From Spartobacteria bacterium (GTDB lineage: Bacteria; Verrucomicrobiota; Verrucomicrobiia; Chthoniobacterales; UBA10450), in the NCBI GenBank assembly GCA_003134765.1, contig PLCM01000017.1, forward strand, positions 67,829 through 131,828: a DNA stretch of 64,000 nt. The letters are read 5' to 3'. A program made the translations under genes and the position numbers. Position 1 is the first letter of the stretch. Every line of letters begins with the position of its first letter. Shown here in pieces: positions 10,494-39,682 of this stretch. The notes under the pieces are model-generated. The model was not told the DNA's origin. It was given only the letters and a program-made list of their open reading frames with translations, and made no database searches.

Positions 10494-10919
10494 ATGTCAG
10501 ATCCACGAAACGTTGCGCACAATAAGAAGGTAAAGCAGGAAAAGGCACACCATGAAGATGCGTCTGGAGCGGGCGCGAAACTGAAGAAGAAGCGCGCGCC
10601 AAAGGATGAGGGAGGCGGAGCGACGGATGCGGCAAATTCAGAAGCGGGTGCTCCGGAGAAAGCTCCGGTCGAGCTGGTGCCGGGCGATTACGAGAAATCG
10701 CAGATCGTTCTCTCGAAGCTCAAGGAGATGGAGTTCCATTCGCGTGCAAACATCGAGACGCTCGCGCAGTTGACCCTGACGATTGAGGATGAGCTAAAGC
10801 AGAAAGAGTTTTCCGGGCCGATCGGCGATATTTACGCCACGCAGGATCAGTTTCACACCCGGATCGCTGAGTTGATCCAGGGTTACGAGAAAAAGACGGA
10901 GGCCTTGCGGCCGGCGTAG
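10494..10919 (+). CDS. Hypothetical protein with Lys-rich N-terminus
   Basis: This 141-residue product is not a recognised family. Residues 1-60 are polar and Lys/Ala/Gly-rich, probably disordered (HNKKVKQEK, KLKKKRAPK). Residues ~65-138 look alpha-helical: SQIVLSKLKEMEFHSRANIETLAQ and ISELIQG-like helix pairs. No signal or membrane segment is seen. It belongs with two other basic small proteins in the window (6829 and 18256), which may bind nucleic acid. A TTATTGG-type repeat and the tail of the hydrolase lie upstream. Confidence 0.6.
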   Translation: MSDPRNVAHNKKVKQEKAHHEDASGAGAKLKKKRAPKDEGGGATDAANSEAGAPEKAPVELVPGDYEKSQIVLSKLKEMEFHSRANIETLAQLTLTIEDELKQKEFSGPIGDIYATQDQFHTRIAELIQGYEKKTEALRPA

Positions 10920-31968: not shown

Positions 31969-34900
31969 TCAGAGTGCTGGCTCCGGGGTTAACGGAGACG
32001 CGGATTGGGTTGGGCCGGATCCGGGAGCGTGGCGGCGTTCCTTGAACCACATGATCACGACATAGAAAACGGGCGTGAGAAAGAGGCCGAAGCCGGTAAC
32101 TCCAAGCATTCCGAAAAAGACCGCGGTTCCAAGGGCCTGACGCATTTCCGCGCCGGCGCCTTTGCTGAGAACAAGCGGAAGGACACCGAAAATAAAGGCA
32201 AAGGAAGTCATCAGGATCGGACGCAACCGCAAACGAGCAGCTTCGACGGCCGCGGCGAAGCGATCTTTCTTATCGCGATCTTCGATTTGTTTTGCGAACT
32301 CGACGATCAGGATTGCGTTCTTACAGGCGAGCCCGACCAGCACGACAAAGCCGATCTGGGTAAAGATGTTGTTTTCCATCGAACGTAACCAGACGCCGCC
32401 AATCGCACTGAACAAACACATCGGCACAATGAGAATGATCGCGAGCGGCAGCGACCAGCTTTCGTAAAGCGCCGAGAGGAGAAGGAAGACGAACAGAACG
32501 CAGAGCGGAAAAATATAGATGGCGCTGTTGCCGGCGAGCTTTTGCTGAAGCGCGATCTCCGTCCAGTCGGTCGTGAAGCTCGTGGGTAGAATTTCTTTGG
32601 CGAGACGGTCGACCGCGGCGAGGGCGTCGCCCGTGCTCGCACCGGGCGCGGGCTGGCCACTGAGATCGGCAGCGGGGAACATATTGTAGCGAGTGATCTT
32701 GTCGGCGCCGCTCACTTCCTGGACAGTCGAGACGGAACCAAGGGGGACAATTCCACCGGCATTATTGCGCGTTTTGAGCAAGCGGATGTCGTCGGGCTTG
32801 AGGCGAAACTCGGAATCGGCCTGGGCCGTTACCCGGTAGGTTCGCCCGAAAAGCGTGAGGTCGTTCACGTAGGCTGAGCCGAGATAGGTCTGGAGGGTGC
32901 CGAAGATATTGCTGAGCGGCACATTCATGCTCTTCGCTTTCACGCGATCTACATCGAGCCAAAGCTGCGGCACGTTGGCGCGAAAGGTCGTTAGGTTGTT
33001 GGTCAGGCCCGGGGTTTGGTTCGCCTTTATCATCATCGCGAAAGCCTGCGCCTGCAGTTCATCGAGGCCGGCGTTGCCGCGGTCCTGAATAAAGAGCTTG
33101 TAGCCACCGGCGTTGCCAATCCCGGCCACAGGCGGTGGTGGAAAGACGATGACCAGAGCCTCAGGGATTTCAGCGCGAACCCGGGCGTTCATCTTCGCTA
33201 TAATCGCCGGCAATCCCTCCTCGGGCGTGTTTCGTTCCGAGAATTCCTTGAAAGGCAGAAACACGGCGGCCGTGTTGGTTTGATTACCGCCGAAAAGATT
33301 GAAGCCGGCAAATTCCACGGTGTTGAGAATGCCGGGCGTTTCATGTGCGATCTTCGCGATCTTGTCCACGACGGCCTGCGTCCGATCGAGCGAAGAGGCG
33401 TCGGGCAACTGCGCGAAAGCAATGGCATAGCCGCGATCCTGTGTCGGAAGAAAACCGCCCGGCACAACTTTGAAACCAAGAGCGGTCAGGCCGAGTAGAC
33501 CGGCGTAGATGAGGAGCACGATGGCAGCGAGCCGGGTAAGCCGCCCGACCGTTCTGCCGTAGGCATTCGAGCTCCAGGCGAAGGCTTTGTTGAAGCCTTT
33601 GAAGAACCAGCCGAGCAAGCCATCGATCAGGCGCTGGAACGCATCCTTCGGCGCGCCGCGTGGCCGGAGCAGGAGCGCCGCGAGCGCAGGCGAAAGCGTC
33701 AGCGAGTTGAGCGCGGAGATCGCGGTCGAGACCGCAATGGTGAGCGCGAACTGCCGAAAGAATATGCCCGTGATGCCGCTAATGAACGCGGTCGGGATAA
33801 AGACCGAGCAAAGCACGAGCGCAATCGCGACCAATGCGCCGCCGACTTCGGTCATGGCTTTGCGCGCCGCGTCGCGCGGGCTCAGACCATCTTCAATGTG
33901 ATGCTCGATCGCCTCGACGACGACGATGGCGTCATCGACCACGATGCCGATCGCGAGAACAAGGCCGAAGAGCGAAACGTTGTTGATCGAGAACCCGAAG
34001 GCCGACATCGCCGCGAAAGTGCCGATCAACGAAACCGGAATCGCGATGAGCGGAATGAGCGCGGCGCGCCAGGTTTGAAGGAAAATAAGCACCACGAGAA
34101 CCACCAGGGCGATCGCTTCGAAAAGGGTTTTCTGGACTTCGTGGATCGACTCGCGGACCGACACGGTCGGGTCGTAGACAATGGTGTAGTCGAGCCCGGC
34201 GGGGAAGCGCTTCTTCAGCTCGTCCATCTTCGCGCGCACGGCGTCGGAGGTGGCGAGTGCGTTCGAGCCCGGGAGCTGGAAAATGGCCATCGCGGTCGCG
34301 GGTTTTCCGCCGAGCTGACTGGTGACCGTGTAGTCGCGAGCGGCGAGTTCAACCCGCGCGACATCGCGCACGCGAGTGACCTGTCCGTCAGCGCCAGTCT
34401 TGACGATGATCTCGCCGAACTCCTTTTCGTCCGCGAGCCGGCCCTGGGTGCTGACCGTGTATTGAAATGCCGTTGCCCCTTTTGGGACCGGCGGGGCGCC
34501 GACGATTCCCGCGGCGACTTGCACATTCTGCTCCTGGATCGCCGTCACAACGTCCTGCGCGGTGAGCCCACGCGAAGAAATCTTGTTAGGATCGAGCCAA
34601 ATCCGCATCGAATACTCGCGCGCGCCAAAGACATTGATGTCGCCGACGCCATCGACACGGGCGAGCTCGTCGCGAACCTGGAGCAGTGCATAATTGCTCG
34701 TGAAAAGCTGATCGAGCGACCCGTCCGGCGAGACGAGGTGCACGACCATGGTAATGTCGGGCGATTGTTTTTTCGTTGTCACCCCGATGCGCTGGACGTC
34801 TGGCGGGAGGATGGGAATCGCGATGGCGACGCGATTTTGCACCAACACCTGGGCGGTATCGAGATTGGTACCGAGCTTGAAAGTGATGCTCAGCGTCATG

Positions 34901-35166
34901 TTGCCATCGCTCGTGCTCTGCGAAGACATGTAGAGCATGTTCTCTACGCCATTGACTTGCTGCTCGATCGGCGTCGCCACCGTTTCCGATACGACCTTCG
35001 CGTTGGCGCCGGGATAGTTGGTCGTGACCTGGATCGTAGGTGGCGCGATCTCCGGATATTGCGCAATGGGAAGGGTCAAAAGCGCGATCACGCCGACGAG
35101 CGTGATGACAATGCTGATCACGCCGGCAAAGATGGGTCGGTCGATAAAAAAATGAGGAAAGTTCAT
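31969..35166 (-). CDS. RND multidrug efflux pump (AcrB/MexB-like)
   Basis: This 1065-residue inner-membrane transporter starts MNFPHFFIDRPIFAGVISIV and has 12 predicted membrane segments. The proton-relay Asp pair is in GIVVDDAIVVVEAIEHH, and two large periplasmic loops have typical motifs (FARVPGG-like PGGFLPTQDRGY, NQTNTAAVF). It exports drugs or other amphiphiles with the membrane-fusion protein (35195-36418), 28 bases upstream in the operon. No outer-membrane factor is in the window. Its length is ordinary for the HAE1 family. The strand pair is a two-gene transcript. Confidence 0.94.
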   Translation of the reverse strand: MNFPHFFIDRPIFAGVISIVITLVGVIALLTLPIAQYPEIAPPTIQVTTNYPGANAKVVSETVATPIEQQVNGVENMLYMSSQSTSDGNMTLSITFKLGTNLDTAQVLVQNRVAIAIPILPPDVQRIGVTTKKQSPDITMVVHLVSPDGSLDQLFTSNYALLQVRDELARVDGVGDINVFGAREYSMRIWLDPNKISSRGLTAQDVVTAIQEQNVQVAAGIVGAPPVPKGATAFQYTVSTQGRLADEKEFGEIIVKTGADGQVTRVRDVARVELAARDYTVTSQLGGKPATAMAIFQLPGSNALATSDAVRAKMDELKKRFPAGLDYTIVYDPTVSVRESIHEVQKTLFEAIALVVLVVLIFLQTWRAALIPLIAIPVSLIGTFAAMSAFGFSINNVSLFGLVLAIGIVVDDAIVVVEAIEHHIEDGLSPRDAARKAMTEVGGALVAIALVLCSVFIPTAFISGITGIFFRQFALTIAVSTAISALNSLTLSPALAALLLRPRGAPKDAFQRLIDGLLGWFFKGFNKAFAWSSNAYGRTVGRLTRLAAIVLLIYAGLLGLTALGFKVVPGGFLPTQDRGYAIAFAQLPDASSLDRTQAVVDKIAKIAHETPGILNTVEFAGFNLFGGNQTNTAAVFLPFKEFSERNTPEEGLPAIIAKMNARVRAEIPEALVIVFPPPPVAGIGNAGGYKLFIQDRGNAGLDELQAQAFAMMIKANQTPGLTNNLTTFRANVPQLWLDVDRVKAKSMNVPLSNIFGTLQTYLGSAYVNDLTLFGRTYRVTAQADSEFRLKPDDIRLLKTRNNAGGIVPLGSVSTVQEVSGADKITRYNMFPAADLSGQPAPGASTGDALAAVDRLAKEILPTSFTTDWTEIALQQKLAGNSAIYIFPLCVLFVFLLLSALYESWSLPLAIILIVPMCLFSAIGGVWLRSMENNIFTQIGFVVLVGLACKNAILIVEFAKQIEDRDKKDRFAAAVEAARLRLRPILMTSFAFIFGVLPLVLSKGAGAEMRQALGTAVFFGMLGVTGFGLFLTPVFYVVIMWFKERRHAPGSGPTQSASPLTPEPAL

Positions 35167-35194: not shown

Positions 35195-36418
35195 TCATTT
35201 CGGCTTTTCGGATGGCGTGGCGTCAGGCGGCGTCGCAGATGGCGTGGCGTTGGCCGGCTTTTCGGATGGCGCGGCGGCGGGCGGCGGGGCCGGCGGCTCT
35301 TCTGGAATGGGCTTAACCGGCATCCCCGGCTGGATCAATTGCAGTCGCGTCGAAACCACCTTCTCGCCGTCCTTCAGTCCGCTCTTCACGATGCGTTTGC
35401 CTTCGAACATCGTGCCGGTTTCAAGGGTGCGGCGCTCGAGGGTGTTATCGGGTTTCACAGCGAAGGCATATTTCACGCCTTGCTGTGAGCTGATCACTTT
35501 ATCGGGAATAAGTGCGGCCCGATATGAGGTCGCGCCGGCTACGCGCACGCGCACGAAGAAACCTGGGGTGATGAGGTTAGGATTCCAGTTTTTTAGCACT
35601 GCGCGAGCGCGGACCGTCCCTGTCCCCGGATCAAGGCGATTGTCCACGAAGTCGATGTAACCTTCGTGTGGGAAGCCCGTCTCGTTTCCGAGCTCGACGA
35701 AAGCCGGGATCTTGGCCGTGCGCGCGCTCACCCGTTTGCCCTCTTCGCTAAGCTTAACGTACTTTAGAATCGCGTTTTCGTCCGCATCGACCTTCGCATA
35801 AATCGGATCGACCGAGACCACCGTGGTAAGCACGCTCTCCGCGCCCGGCCCTGGCTGAACGAGGTTACCGAGCGTAATGCGCGCGTCGCTCACGCGACCG
35901 TCGATGGGCGATTTGATCTGGGTGAACTCCAGATTCAACCCGGCGGAGTTTTTCGATGCTTCGGCCGAGGCCGCGGCGGCGGAGGCACCCTGATAAGTGG
36001 CAGCCTTCTGGTCGAACTCGCTGGCCGAGATCGTATTCTTGGTCCGCAGCTCCTTCGCGCGGTCCAGCTCGATCTGCGCAAGCTTGAGCTGCGCCTGCAT
36101 GCGCTCGAACTCGGCGGCGGCTCGATCAAAGTCCGCCTGATAGGGACGGGGATCGATCACGTAAAGCAGGTCGCCTTTCTTGATGATGGCGCCGGCTTCG
36201 ATATGGACCTCGGTAATATACCCGGACACGCGCGGCCTGATTTCCACCGACTCGACTGCCTCGAGGCGGCCCGTGAATTCGTCCCACTCGTTCACCTCTT
36301 TCTCGATGACGGTGAGGACGTTGACCGGTAACGGGGGCGGCGCCGGCGGGGCTGCTTTCTTGCAGGCAACTGCGGCGGCTAAAAAAAGCGCGAGGCCGAG
36401 ACTGATAACAAGTTTCAT
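35195..36418 (-). CDS. RND periplasmic adaptor lipoprotein (AcrA/MexA-like)
   Basis: This 407-residue protein has a lipobox (LAAAVAC, Cys19) and a strong ribosome site (AAGAGGAG) upstream. Residues ~40-340 show the adaptor layout: VEIRPRVSGYITEVHI, a helical hairpin with ELDRAKELRTKNTISASEFDQK, and the lipoyl-like/barrel QIKSPIDGRVSDARI. The C-terminal ~40 residues are Pro/Ala/Lys-rich and may be disordered. It links the pump to an outer-membrane channel. Confidence 0.92.
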   Translation of the reverse strand: MKLVISLGLALFLAAAVACKKAAPPAPPPLPVNVLTVIEKEVNEWDEFTGRLEAVESVEIRPRVSGYITEVHIEAGAIIKKGDLLYVIDPRPYQADFDRAAAEFERMQAQLKLAQIELDRAKELRTKNTISASEFDQKAATYQGASAAAASAEASKNSAGLNLEFTQIKSPIDGRVSDARITLGNLVQPGPGAESVLTTVVSVDPIYAKVDADENAILKYVKLSEEGKRVSARTAKIPAFVELGNETGFPHEGYIDFVDNRLDPGTGTVRARAVLKNWNPNLITPGFFVRVRVAGATSYRAALIPDKVISSQQGVKYAFAVKPDNTLERRTLETGTMFEGKRIVKSGLKDGEKVVSTRLQLIQPGMPVKPIPEEPPAPPPAAAPSEKPANATPSATPPDATPSEKPK

Positions 36419-36709
36419 CCTATCTCCTCTTCTTGATAATGGGTGTCCGCCGCTGAAGCGTGGCCGCTAATACCACGCCTCGCGGCGGCATTTGTCACGT
36501 GTCATTTTTGTGAACTTTCAACTGCCGCGTTCGTGAGTCTTGAGTGGGTTGAAAACACGCTCCCACCCATCGGCAAAGTTGAAGATCGCCAGGTTAAGCA
36601 CAAGCATTGGATCGTGGTTTCTCCGGTGGCGCCGGAACATTCCTCGCCCATTACTCCTGCGGGGTAGTTGCGGAGTTTTCATTCTCGGTCTTCTGATATC
36701 GCTCATGGA
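36419..36709. other. Intergenic region, nothing clear
   Basis: These 291 bases lie between the adaptor's start and the SDR's end. A short GTGACAAATG-like fragment, TTGTCACGTGTCAT, is at 36489-36502. Two small open frames show no coding character, and no hairpin stands out. It likely holds the efflux operon's promoter. Confidence 0.5.
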
Positions 36710-37465
36710 TCAGCGCATTCCGCCTGCGACGTAAATCACTTCGCCGGTGATCCACCCCGCATCCGACGAAGCGAGAAAGGCGACGGCCGGCGCGATGTCG
36801 CGGGGCTGGCCAAGGCGGCCCAACGGTGTTTGTGCGACCATTTGTTTCTCGAAATCGCTCCCCGCGAATCCGCCGGCATGAAAGCCTTCCGTCTCAACCC
36901 CGCCCGGATTGATTGAATTCACCCGGATTTTCTTTGGCCCAAGCTCCTTCGCCAATACCCGGGTGACCGCATCCACGGCCCCTTTGGTTGCGGTATAGAT
37001 CGCCGAGGTCGGCGGCGTTAGAGACGTCGCGGCTGAACTAATATTGATTACGCTGCCGCCATCGGTGCCGAAATGTTTCACCGCCTCCTGGGTGGCCAGG
37101 ATCAGACCGAGAACATTCGTGTTAAACTCGCGATGGAACTCGCTCTCCGTCGCATCTTCAAGAGGGGCGAATTGGTAAACGCCGGCGTTGTTCACCAGGA
37201 TATCGAGGCGGCCAAACGCTTTCTTTGTCTCTGCGAAAAGGCGTTCGATATCTTTCTTCTTCGCGACATCCGCTTGGAGAGCGATCGCTTTTCCACCTCT
37301 CTTCGCAATTTGGTCAACCACCTGATCCGCACCCTCCTTTGAGGATGCGTAGTTCACTACCACCGCCGCACCTTCGGCGGCGAGATGCTTGGCGATGCCC
37401 GCGCCAATTCCTTTCGAGGCCCCGGTTACCACCGCGACCTGGTCTCTCAGTTTTCCAGTTTTCAT
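36710..37465 (-). CDS. SDR-family oxidoreductase
   Basis: This 251-residue NAD(P)-dependent short-chain dehydrogenase has TGASKGIGAGIA (nucleotide loop), NNAGVY, catalytic Ser in INISSAATSLTPP, and Tyr/Lys in AIYTATKGAV. It ends AGWITGEVIYVAGGMR. It resembles 3-oxoacyl-ACP reductase/glucose-dehydrogenase-like members and would oxidise or reduce an alcohol/ketone of unknown identity. Its gene starts 40 bases from the micro-ORF stop and is on the same strand, so it may be the last gene of the TetR group or independent. Confidence 0.9.
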   Translation of the reverse strand: MKTGKLRDQVAVVTGASKGIGAGIAKHLAAEGAAVVVNYASSKEGADQVVDQIAKRGGKAIALQADVAKKKDIERLFAETKKAFGRLDILVNNAGVYQFAPLEDATESEFHREFNTNVLGLILATQEAVKHFGTDGGSVINISSAATSLTPPTSAIYTATKGAVDAVTRVLAKELGPKKIRVNSINPGGVETEGFHAGGFAGSDFEKQMVAQTPLGRLGQPRDIAPAVAFLASSDAGWITGEVIYVAGGMR

Positions 37466-37504: not shown

Positions 37505-37570
37505 TCACACATAGAAGCCGAACGCCGGCTGGTAGCTCGGCATGCCGGAGAAGTCGTGGGACTCGAACAT
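37505..37570 (-). CDS. 21-residue micro-ORF after the peptidoglycan-binding gene
   Basis: The ATG at 37570 lies one base past the TAA of the upstream gene (TAAcATG), with GGGAAG 9 bases before it. The product ends MPSYQPAFGFYV, and its 12-residue tail aligns with MGNYQPVLAYANC, the end of the 108-residue protein two genes up: M, Y, Q and P match and hydrophobics follow. It could be a small secreted or regulatory peptide, or a chance frame. The shared tail and coupling are why it is listed. Confidence 0.4.
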   Translation of the reverse strand: MFESHDFSGMPSYQPAFGFYV

Positions 37571-37571
37571 G

Positions 37572-38399
37572 TTAGTTACTTCCCACTCGTGGCGCCTCCA
37601 AGGCGTGCAGCGTGTCCACGTTAAGACGCCCGGTCACGCGCAGGCCGCGGTCGCTCTGATAACGCATGATGGCACGACGGGTTTCCGGCCCGACGATGCC
37701 GTCGATTTCTCCCCGGTAATAACCTTGTCGCGCTAACTGCGTCTGAGCACTGGCCACGGTCGAGTCGGTTACTTGACCCGAAGAATCGTAGGCGCCCTGG
37801 CTGTAGTAATTGGCGTCGTCCTCGTACACTCCCGGATCGTACTCATAGGGGTAGTAGTCGTACGGATACCCATAATCGTATGGATAGAATCCGGTGTCGT
37901 AGATGAACCATTCGCCGTTAACGAAACGGCAACGGTGGCCATTCCAGAAATGGTCGCGATGCCGGTCCCAATCACGCTGCCAATTGGCCGTGCGGCGCGC
38001 AAAGACATGCTGTTGCGCGGCACTCGCGGCCCGGTTCTCGAAACGACTACCGGGCGCCTGCCCGTTTCGGCTGAAACGGCTGTCGCTACCGGCGACGGAT
38101 CGCGATGCGTCGATGCGATGATTCATCCTTGCCGTCGCAAACTGGCGATTCTGCGCAAAGGCGCGACCGGAACTACCGAACCGCTGTTCCCGAAACGCCA
38201 TCGGCGCGCGGTAAGATGAGAAACGCGGCCCGGGCGCGTTGAAGCGTCCGGCGCCAAAGTTACTCCGTGGCGCGGAGTGGAACGCGGGAGCGGAATGCGG
38301 AGCCATCGCAAAACCTCCGCTGTGATAGCCGCCAGCTCGCGCTTGTGCGATCAAGGCCGCGCTCGTAAAAAGCGCGATCCAATAGACTCTAGTTTTCAT
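37572..38399 (-). CDS. Secreted Tyr-rich peptidoglycan-binding protein
   Basis: This 275-residue protein has a signal peptide (YWIALFTSAALIAQARA). The middle is low-complexity: Ser/Arg/Ala/Phe-rich to ~165, then a Tyr/Asp/Pro tract (FYPYDYGYPYDYYPYEY). The C-terminal ~60 residues form a PG_binding_1 domain: QTQLARQGYYRGEIDGIVGPETRRAIMRYQSDRGL. The ATG follows AAAGGAAATCTAAAC inside the end of the preceding small gene. It likely binds the cell wall from the periplasm. Its place behind tetR implies regulated expression. Confidence 0.8.
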   Translation of the reverse strand: MKTRVYWIALFTSAALIAQARAGGYHSGGFAMAPHSAPAFHSAPRSNFGAGRFNAPGPRFSSYRAPMAFREQRFGSSGRAFAQNRQFATARMNHRIDASRSVAGSDSRFSRNGQAPGSRFENRAASAAQQHVFARRTANWQRDWDRHRDHFWNGHRCRFVNGEWFIYDTGFYPYDYGYPYDYYPYEYDPGVYEDDANYYSQGAYDSSGQVTDSTVASAQTQLARQGYYRGEIDGIVGPETRRAIMRYQSDRGLRVTGRLNVDTLHALEAPRVGSN

Positions 38400-38401
38400 G
38401 T

Positions 38402-38599
38402 TTAGATTTCCTTTCTGTCTTGCGAACTCTCCTGATCGTTCGTTTCGTTGAACTCCACGATCATCAAGTTCCTTGTCTGATCTGCCTCGTTAGGCACTTT
38501 GAAATCGCTGTGCGCGGGAACCCAGGTCCTTACGCGTTCTTCCTGCAGGGAGTGGTGTGTCTGGAAGCGCCCGATGATATCGATGAGGTTGTTGTTCAT
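38402..38599 (-). CDS. 65-residue small protein
   Basis: This small acidic protein begins MNNNLIDIIGRFQTHHSL and ends NDQESSQDRKEI, without signal, Cys or recognised motif. It is flanked closely: its stop is 2 bases before the ATG of the Tyr-rich gene, whose ribosome site lies in its last codons. Such coupling supports a real gene. AAGAGC lies upstream of its ATG. Function unknown. Confidence 0.5.
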   Translation of the reverse strand: MNNNLIDIIGRFQTHHSLQEERVRTWVPAHSDFKVPNEADQTRNLMIVEFNETNDQESSQDRKEI

Positions 38600-38638
38600 C
38601 GTATTGCTCTTGTGTTTGGTATTTGGAGACGCGCTGAT

Positions 38639-38965
38639 TTAGCAATTCGCATAAGCGAGAACCGGCTGATAATTTCCCATTTCAATGGAGTCGGGTGGCG
38701 TTAGGACGTCGTCATGTGGCGGGCCGACCGGTTGCAGCCCGAGCTTGGCGATGTGCGCTTCGACAAGGTCAGGTAAAAACAAATGGGGAAAAGACAACTC
38801 CCAGGCGTTCGCTTCCTCTTCGTCGAGGACGAGCTGGATGATGTCGCCCAGGCCGGGGTAAGCCTGCTCGTAATCGTACTTCAGGCGCTTTTTCAGGTCC
38901 GAAAGGGCGCCGGTTAACGTTTGGAGGAAACGTACGCTTGCTGCTGATTCCTGGTCAGTTTGCAT
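38639..38965 (-). CDS. 108-residue acidic protein with YQP tail
   Basis: Start ATG 38965 has AAAAGGAACTAACCAA upstream. An alternative ATG (39037) overlaps the TetR stop as ATGA and would give 132 residues. The protein has a helical N-terminus (SAASVRFLQTLTGALSDLKKRLKYDYEQAYPGLG), cut here at key residues, an acidic mid-part (VLDEEEANAWEL) and the end MGNYQPVLAYANC. It has no membrane segment. It is not a recognised family; the tail resembles the micro-ORF peptide downstream. Confidence 0.6.
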   Translation of the reverse strand: MQTDQESAASVRFLQTLTGALSDLKKRLKYDYEQAYPGLGDIIQLVLDEEEANAWELSFPHLFLPDLVEAHIAKLGLQPVGPPHDDVLTPPDSIEMGNYQPVLAYANC

Positions 38966-39033
38966 TTGGTTAGTTCCTTTTGGCTGGTTGTTAGTTGACT
39001 GGTCGTCTATATAATTGAGAAAAAAAGAGAGGC

Positions 39034-39648
39034 TCATGATGAAATAGCGTCGACCTGTTTCACGCCCAAAACATCCATTGCCACCCGCTTAAAATCGCGG
39101 ATCAACTCGACGTCGTTTTGAATTCGCGCCTGGGTAAGCGTGCCGTGATAGCAAGCGAAGAGCATTTTCGCCTTCGCTTCCGGGTCGGGCGCCTCGATCA
39201 AACCTTGGGCATGGGCGTCCCGGATCGCGGACTCGAAATACTTTATCTTGCGATCCCAGATGCGGTCGACGGTATCGCGCACGCCCTCGTCTTGCGTTCC
39301 CACTTCGCTCCCGATGGTCAAGAGAGGGCATCCCAGGATGGAGCCACACGCCTGTTGAATCTCCGCCAGGCGATCGTGCACATATTCAAAATACCGATCG
39401 AATCGTTCCAGAGGCGGAATGGTCGGTGAAAAGAGAGCGTCCATGTTCTTCTTGTTCTTGTTCCACTCTGCTTCCAAGGCAGCGGCGGTGAGCGCGGATT
39501 TCGACTTGAAGAAATAATAAAAGCTCCCCTTTTTCGCGCCGGCCCGTTCGCAGATAGCGTCGACGGACGTAGCGCCGTAGCTGTTGTGCCAAATCAAATC
39601 CAACGCCGCGTCGGTCAGGCGCTCCTTCATGTCACTCACTCTTGCCAT
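39034..39648 (-). CDS. TetR/AcrR-family regulator
   Basis: This 204-residue protein has the TetR DNA-binding helices in residues ~8-55: DAALDLIWHNSYGATSVDAICERAGAKKGSFYYFFKSK, cut here at key residues. The ligand domain follows (~60-200), with GCPLLTIGSEV and a final helix (DVELIRDFKRVAMDVLG). It likely represses the four genes downstream on its strand and itself. A partial dyad lies 19 bases upstream of its start. The ligand is unknown. Two RND genes lie 3 kb away on the same strand and might be a target. Confidence 0.9.
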   Translation of the reverse strand: MARVSDMKERLTDAALDLIWHNSYGATSVDAICERAGAKKGSFYYFFKSKSALTAAALEAEWNKNKKNMDALFSPTIPPLERFDRYFEYVHDRLAEIQQACGSILGCPLLTIGSEVGTQDEGVRDTVDRIWDRKIKYFESAIRDAHAQGLIEAPDPEAKAKMLFACYHGTLTQARIQNDVELIRDFKRVAMDVLGVKQVDAISS

Positions 39649-39666
39649 GCCACCAAAATACCGGTG

Positions 39667-39682
39667 TAGACTAATCGGTCAA
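39667..39682. promoter_or_regulatory. Candidate TetR operator dyad
   Basis: TAGACTAATCGGTCAA and its reverse complement match at 10 of 16 positions, with outer GAC/GTC half-sites. It lies 19 bases upstream of the tetR start, where an autoregulatory operator would be expected. Confidence 0.45.

Follow-up and report, generated by a model that had tools for sequence, protein, structure and literature searches.

A micro-ORF behind a tetR gene of a Spartobacteria bacterium is almost certainly the stranded 3′ end of an older resident gene

On the minus strand of a 64,000-nucleotide stretch of contig PLCM01000017.1 from a Spartobacteria bacterium (hereafter, the window), a 21-codon micro-ORF and a 108-residue protein, here called SMALL, stand behind the same tetR gene and end in a similar short tail. 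Does this likeness reflect chance, a peptide system, or the history of the locus? A sequence-only reading had suggested a peptide-based or wall-associated system, allowing that the tail match is short and could be chance. We consider it very probable that the locus is a TetR-controlled efflux/redox operon, in which the micro-ORF is a stub of a SMALL gene and the block upstream of it was rebuilt.

The five ORFs first described were all found on the minus strand, and both coupled starts (TAAcATG, and a stop 2 bases from ATG) proved to be correct (Table 1). SMALL is indeed acidic (pI 4.3), and the secreted protein, which has a signal-like stretch at its N-terminus, is indeed Tyr-rich (20 Tyr in 275 residues), with PG_binding_1 as its wall-binding domain. 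The gene set as first listed is present but incomplete: the micro-ORF is not its last member, and an SDR gene, a small ORF, an RND adaptor (MFP) and an RND permease continue on the same strand. The start of the 108-aa form of SMALL has a Shine-Dalgarno-like stretch, AAGGAA; an alternative in-frame start at 39037 would give a 132-aa form overlapping the tetR stop. The 19-residue core of p65 is 63–68% identical in the related loci L010, L011, L012 and L016. SDR and MFP are separated by a 62-aa ORF that is a probable small protein gene, its C-terminal part (MLVLNLAIFNFADGWERVFNPLKTHERG) being 55–67% conserved in L010, L013, L019, L020, L021, L026 and L029.

Table 1. Features of the locus, in positions of the window
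Feature	Position	Strand	Evidence
O1, operator-like site TTGACCGATTAGTCTA upstream of tetR	39667..39682	(-)	
tetR (TetR_N, TetR_C_13)	39034..39648	(-)	Pfam above cut-off
O2, operator-like site TAGACGACCAGTCAA between tetR and SMALL	38995..39009	(-)	
SMALL, 108-aa acidic protein, end MGNYQPVLAYANC	38639..38965	(-)	relatives; AF2 model
Decayed RND-permease start (ATGCGAATTGCTAAATCAGCGC), overlaps SMALL stop	38631..38652	(-)	
p65, 65-aa ORF, core LIDIIGRFQTHHSLQEER common to p65-like ORFs	38402..38599	(-)	
Secreted Tyr-rich PG_binding_1 protein	37572..38399	(-)	PG_binding_1 E 6e-16
Micro-ORF	37505..37570	(-)	SMALL-homologous part 37505-37552
SDR oxidoreductase	36710..37465	(-)	adh_short_C2 E 2e-66
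62-aa ORF between SDR and MFP	36518-36706	(-)	
RND periplasmic adaptor (MexE/OqxA-like)	35195..36418	(-)	82% DNA to G006
RND efflux permease (HAE1 type)	31969..35166	(-)	88% DNA to G006

Inside the window alone, the tail match is as weak as had been cautioned, and a coincidence could be argued from it: the micro-ORF tail scored 26 against the SMALL tail of the window, barely above the next of 1,686 ORF ends (23), and 253 of 20,000 shuffles reached that score. Judged against relatives, the match is of another order. The micro-ORF scored 62 against the SMALL tail of G006, a genome of the same genus, and 44 against the tail of L011, and none of 20,000 shuffles reached either value; the same was found for the tail of L009 (0/20,000). 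Since the G006 score was never reached by shuffling, the likeness between micro-ORF and SMALL tail was taken as homology, and the collinearity of the DNA with the 3′ end of the G006 SMALL gene likewise speaks against coincidence. With both observations, a chance match was ruled out, and its probability is negligible. We conclude from these comparisons that the two tails are alike since both descend from the C-terminus of SMALL.

The same arrangement of tetR followed by a SMALL gene of ~108 aa was found at 25 loci, nearly all of them in Chthoniobacterales/Udaeobacter-type soil Verrucomicrobiota. Relatives of SMALL occur in 8 of 39 near genomes (the window's own counted), on 25 named contigs, and in 28 of the 213 genomes of the order. 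Among 387 genomes of the wider phylum there were two marginal matches, both within much longer open frames, and no match was found on plasmids. Most SMALL tails are YQPAFA-like (for example, NYQPAFALCG, SYQPAFAFCG and NHQPALAYVDC), while the deep relatives L082, L083 and L085 end without the tail.

The origin of the micro-ORF can be read from G006 (L004/L023), where SMALL lies directly upstream of SDR and ends GFSGFPSYQPAFAFCG. By blastn, the window is collinear with G006, unbroken and at 85%, over a stretch that starts at the FSG codons of the micro-ORF, takes in its stop and the spacer, and runs to the end of SDR; tail and spacer together are 81% identical over 73 bp. The micro-ORF thus has its homologue in the 3′ end of a SMALL gene that is intact in G006, and it runs into the same downstream SDR. 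Because micro-ORF, spacer and SDR align without a break with the G006 gene end, the micro-ORF (DFSGMPSYQPAFGFYV) is almost certainly the stranded 3′ end of an older resident SMALL gene, an arrangement known from one genome. Upstream of this stub stands the tetR-SMALL-p65-PG-binding block. At other loci, bases like AGTAACTAAC connect the PG-binding gene to a conserved ORF of ~41 aa that has a single hydrophobic stretch, and in the window AGTAACTAAC runs from the PG-binding stop straight into the micro-ORF. Since these bases enter the ~41-aa ORF elsewhere, the right-hand junction was placed just after the PG-binding stop (AGTAACTAAC, then ATG..). The resident SMALL would once have stood directly before SDR, as it still does in G006; the tetR-SMALL-p65-PG-binding block would then have been imported by recombination, replacing the resident one and leaving a stub that is presumably without function. 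The ~41-aa ORF (..FWFAVLSPVLGILVGFLGLLLFYH) is present at 11 loci, in most of them immediately after the PG-binding gene (e.g., L028:3223-3348, L013:8070-8195 and L018:1123-1233), and is missing from the window at the junction.

If the micro-ORF were instead translated into a working peptide that imitates the SMALL tail, that peptide might compete for the partner to which the tail binds, or couple translation to SDR. Its frame is open, with its own ATG, a GGAAG stretch upstream and the TAAcATG coupling to the PG-binding gene, and of the 11 positions at which it differs from G006, 7 are third codon positions (P about 0.04). However, this bias is expected anyway, since the G006 branch is an intact gene; it would be expected for a young stub and equally for a translated one. 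The Cys that lies near the C-terminus in 20 of 23 SMALL sequences (alignment A2, columns 98–108) is lost in the stub, where FYV replaces FCG, and the stub stop is 39 bp from the SDR start. Moreover, relatives are without a conserved free tail gene: 24 of the 25 related loci have none as far as their contigs can be read, and the exception, L012, carries a second stub. The search of relatives for gene order and tail therefore came out in two halves: the tail is kept, on SMALL, but tetR and the other genes are kept without the micro-ORF. A wider family of YQP tails was also rejected, as a degenerate DNA pattern run on 83 family genomes returned only SMALL ends, the window micro-ORF and unrelated frames. 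A functional peptide is accordingly quite improbable. The proposed peptide-based system does not survive the displaced SMALL 3′ end, the lack of a free tail in 24 of 25 loci and the lost Cys, and the PG-binding gene is one among several interchangeable cargo genes. By these comparisons, the tail is shared through true common ancestry, with no new peptide system behind it; what looks like a peptide gene can thus be a relic of a rebuilt operon.

Next, we consider how the upstream block came to stand where it does. The flanks of the window locus are closest to G006 (DNA identity of 86% for zf-UBP, 85% for SDR, 82% for MFP and 88% for RND), and the SDR tree joins the window and G006 with support of 100/100. 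The tetR gene, by contrast, is 85% identical in DNA to L011, from another genus, vs 75% to same-genus G006, and the G006 locus lacks both p65 and the PG-binding gene. In the tetR+SMALL tree, G006 groups with L021, L024, L026, L027 and L030 (96/95), and the window falls in a group holding L010, L011, L012 and L016 (87/83). In the AU test, window and G006 as one clade were not formally rejected (p 0.067 for tetR, p 0.083 for tetR+SMALL). Since this test is borderline, import of the block into the window locus is likely, but not proven. Discordant trees and a stub could likewise arise from an ancient tandem duplication with differential loss, in which G006 kept one of two tetR-SMALL units and the window genome the other; the micro-ORF would then be the last piece of the lost unit, leaving the stub reading unchanged but giving it a history without import. 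The AU test does not decide against such a duplication. Nevertheless, two complete tetR-SMALL units in tandem were seen in no locus, the window tetR resembles loci from other genera, and the tetR-SMALL pair is patchy in the genus (3 of 8 genomes), which exchange fits better. We regard a duplication as rather unlikely, though of appreciable weight.

A second case of a displaced SMALL end was found in L012 (Ca. Udaeobacter sp.), where an intact SMALL is followed by RND, MFP, a 55-codon ORF and a p65-like sequence. The 55-codon ORF, whose start we take to read like the N-terminus of a zinc-type dehydrogenase, ends APHRFFDMPSYKSPLAYVDY. Over 382 bp, positions 10820–11200 of L012 share 91% identity with the 3′ end of SMALL plus p65 in L011; the nearest relatives of the first SMALL 3′ end in L012 are those of L016 and L033, both of which have RND directly behind SMALL. 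As this stretch matches the L011 SMALL end and p65 behind an intact SMALL, the alignments show cargo exchange leaving a SMALL stub at least twice, in the window and in L012. Comparable 3′ stubs are known at integration sites in gene 3′ ends. The arrangement resembles those produced by cassette insertion or gene replacement in that an intact gene carries a foreign 3′ end and is followed by new cargo and then by the displaced native 3′ end, a combination seen twice (window and L012); it differs in that no integrase was seen in the window segment, which spans only ~1.1 kb between the SMALL stop and the stub. For the window stub, ordinary recombination suffices.

Other irregularities were seen at these loci. 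In L028:1247-2278, SMALL and SDR form an in-frame fusion from which the SMALL tail is missing; this may be one more rearrangement affecting this gene end, or else a deletion in the assembly. The p65-like ORFs at L010:6390-6617, L016:11509-11763 and L012:10973-11116 start like a decayed SDR N-terminus (MNTKKIADEVVTAGSKGICAAIA..), followed by a conserved core, SVIDIVERFQxxHALQEER, and may in their turn have arisen by gene fusion or decay. The tetR of L012 (L012:5316-5928) reads in three pieces, as a frameshifted pseudogene or through sequencing error.

Many SMALL tails end alike, and the gene that may follow them bears on this. In L012 and L016, the start of the RND permease (ATGTGGAT.., MWIVKLALRRPYTF) overlaps the last SMALL codons, and in L033 it overlaps the SMALL stop as TGATG. 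Loci without a pump at this place keep a decayed RND start (ATGCGAATTGCTAAATCAGCGC in the window, ATGTGGATTGTTAGATTAGCGCTGCGG in L010, ATGTGGATAGTTAAACTC in L018). The intact counterpart of the window start in L012/L016 is ATGTGGATTGTTAAGTTAGC = MWIVKLALRRPY, from which the decayed start differs by transitions throughout. Compared in this way, the SMALL endings LCG, YVDC and YANC are the RND-start motif read in two frames. The overlap leaves the conservation of YQPA unexplained, because YQPA lies upstream of it. Despite the two frames in which SMALL endings run through the old RND start, the near-terminal Cys is kept.

That the genes are under TetR control, as had been proposed, is supported by two operator-like sites. 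O1 (TTGACYGATYAGTCTA type), just upstream of tetR, can be recognised at each of the 19 loci whose sequence extends over this stretch, and O2 (TATAGACGACYAGTCAAATA) at all 22 loci read, the window included, with one base changed in two of them. In the genome, O1 has a single match with <2 mismatches, which is the sole exact match, and O2 a single match with up to 1 mismatch; a second good operator, as for a wider regulon, was not found in the genome. Conserved at the locus and single in the genome, the two sites support a local control by TetR, acting through predicted binding on its own gene and on SMALL with its cargo. TetR would bind both operators and be released by a toxic small molecule, which the pump and the oxidoreductases would then clear.

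The cargo behind tetR and SMALL differs between genomes, comprising SDR, zinc dehydrogenase, an RND pump with its adaptor, and the PG-binding protein, whose relatives stand behind SMALL or SDR in many loci. Since the cargo varies among these families, the region is most likely a xenobiotic efflux/redox operon; since they stand behind a TetR_C_13 regulator, clearance of a toxic small molecule by pump and oxidoreductases is a reasonably probable function. Like the RND operons of the acrR-acrAB and mexEF/oqxAB type, the locus has a TetR regulator with operator-like sites and, behind it on the same strand, adaptor and permease in line; the adaptor is nearest to MexE/OqxA, and the permease passes the RND_permease_1 cut-off. 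Unlike in these operons, a small uncharacterised protein comes first, behind its own operator-like site, and in other genomes the pump is joined or supplanted by genes for SDR, zinc dehydrogenase or PG-binding proteins. The acrylate regulator AcuR shares TetR_N and TetR_C_13 above cut-off and oxidoreductases downstream, and is the nearest named regulator to the window TetR, though the AcuR model gave 60.8 bits, far under its cut-off of 247. Regulators of the NemR/electrophile-responsive type, likewise of the TetR_C_13 kind and with oxidoreductases downstream, are a further TetR comparison. A search of the literature turned up nothing relevant on such a TetR/small-protein/SDR operon in Verrucomicrobia. 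Multidrug resistance and a large number of RND pump genes have been reported for ‘Ca. Udaeobacter’ (PMC7343977); this fits with a clearance function but is no test of it. In these abundant, little-studied soil Verrucomicrobiota, regulator, operator and SMALL are constant and the efflux/redox genes are exchanged, and cargo swapping under one promoter is of some interest given the reported resistance (PMC7343977).

What remains of interest at the locus is SMALL, along with the way in which cargo changes while the regulator and operator before it stay constant. SMALL is without a family match in Pfam, NCBIfam and PHROGs; a profile match to BmrR (E 0.012, residues 4–53) was judged a non-specific helix match. 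Its AF2 model (pLDDT 64.8) has three helices and a tail predicted to be disordered, and Foldseek returned nothing significant for it (best E 2.5). It is conceivable, as a very long shot, that SMALL represents a new kind of helper or regulator responding to stress, that its disordered YQP-Cys tail acts as a redox or binding switch, and that the 3′ end of the gene is a preferred junction for swapping pump and oxidoreductase cassettes, each exchange leaving a translated tail peptide in competition with the tail of SMALL. A Verrucomicrobia-type tetR-SMALL pair was also found on a contig filed in an Acidobacteria gp4 MAG (L014:3378-4389), with its tetR next to that of L019 (96/88); the pair is probably a binning contaminant, and otherwise an inter-phylum transfer.
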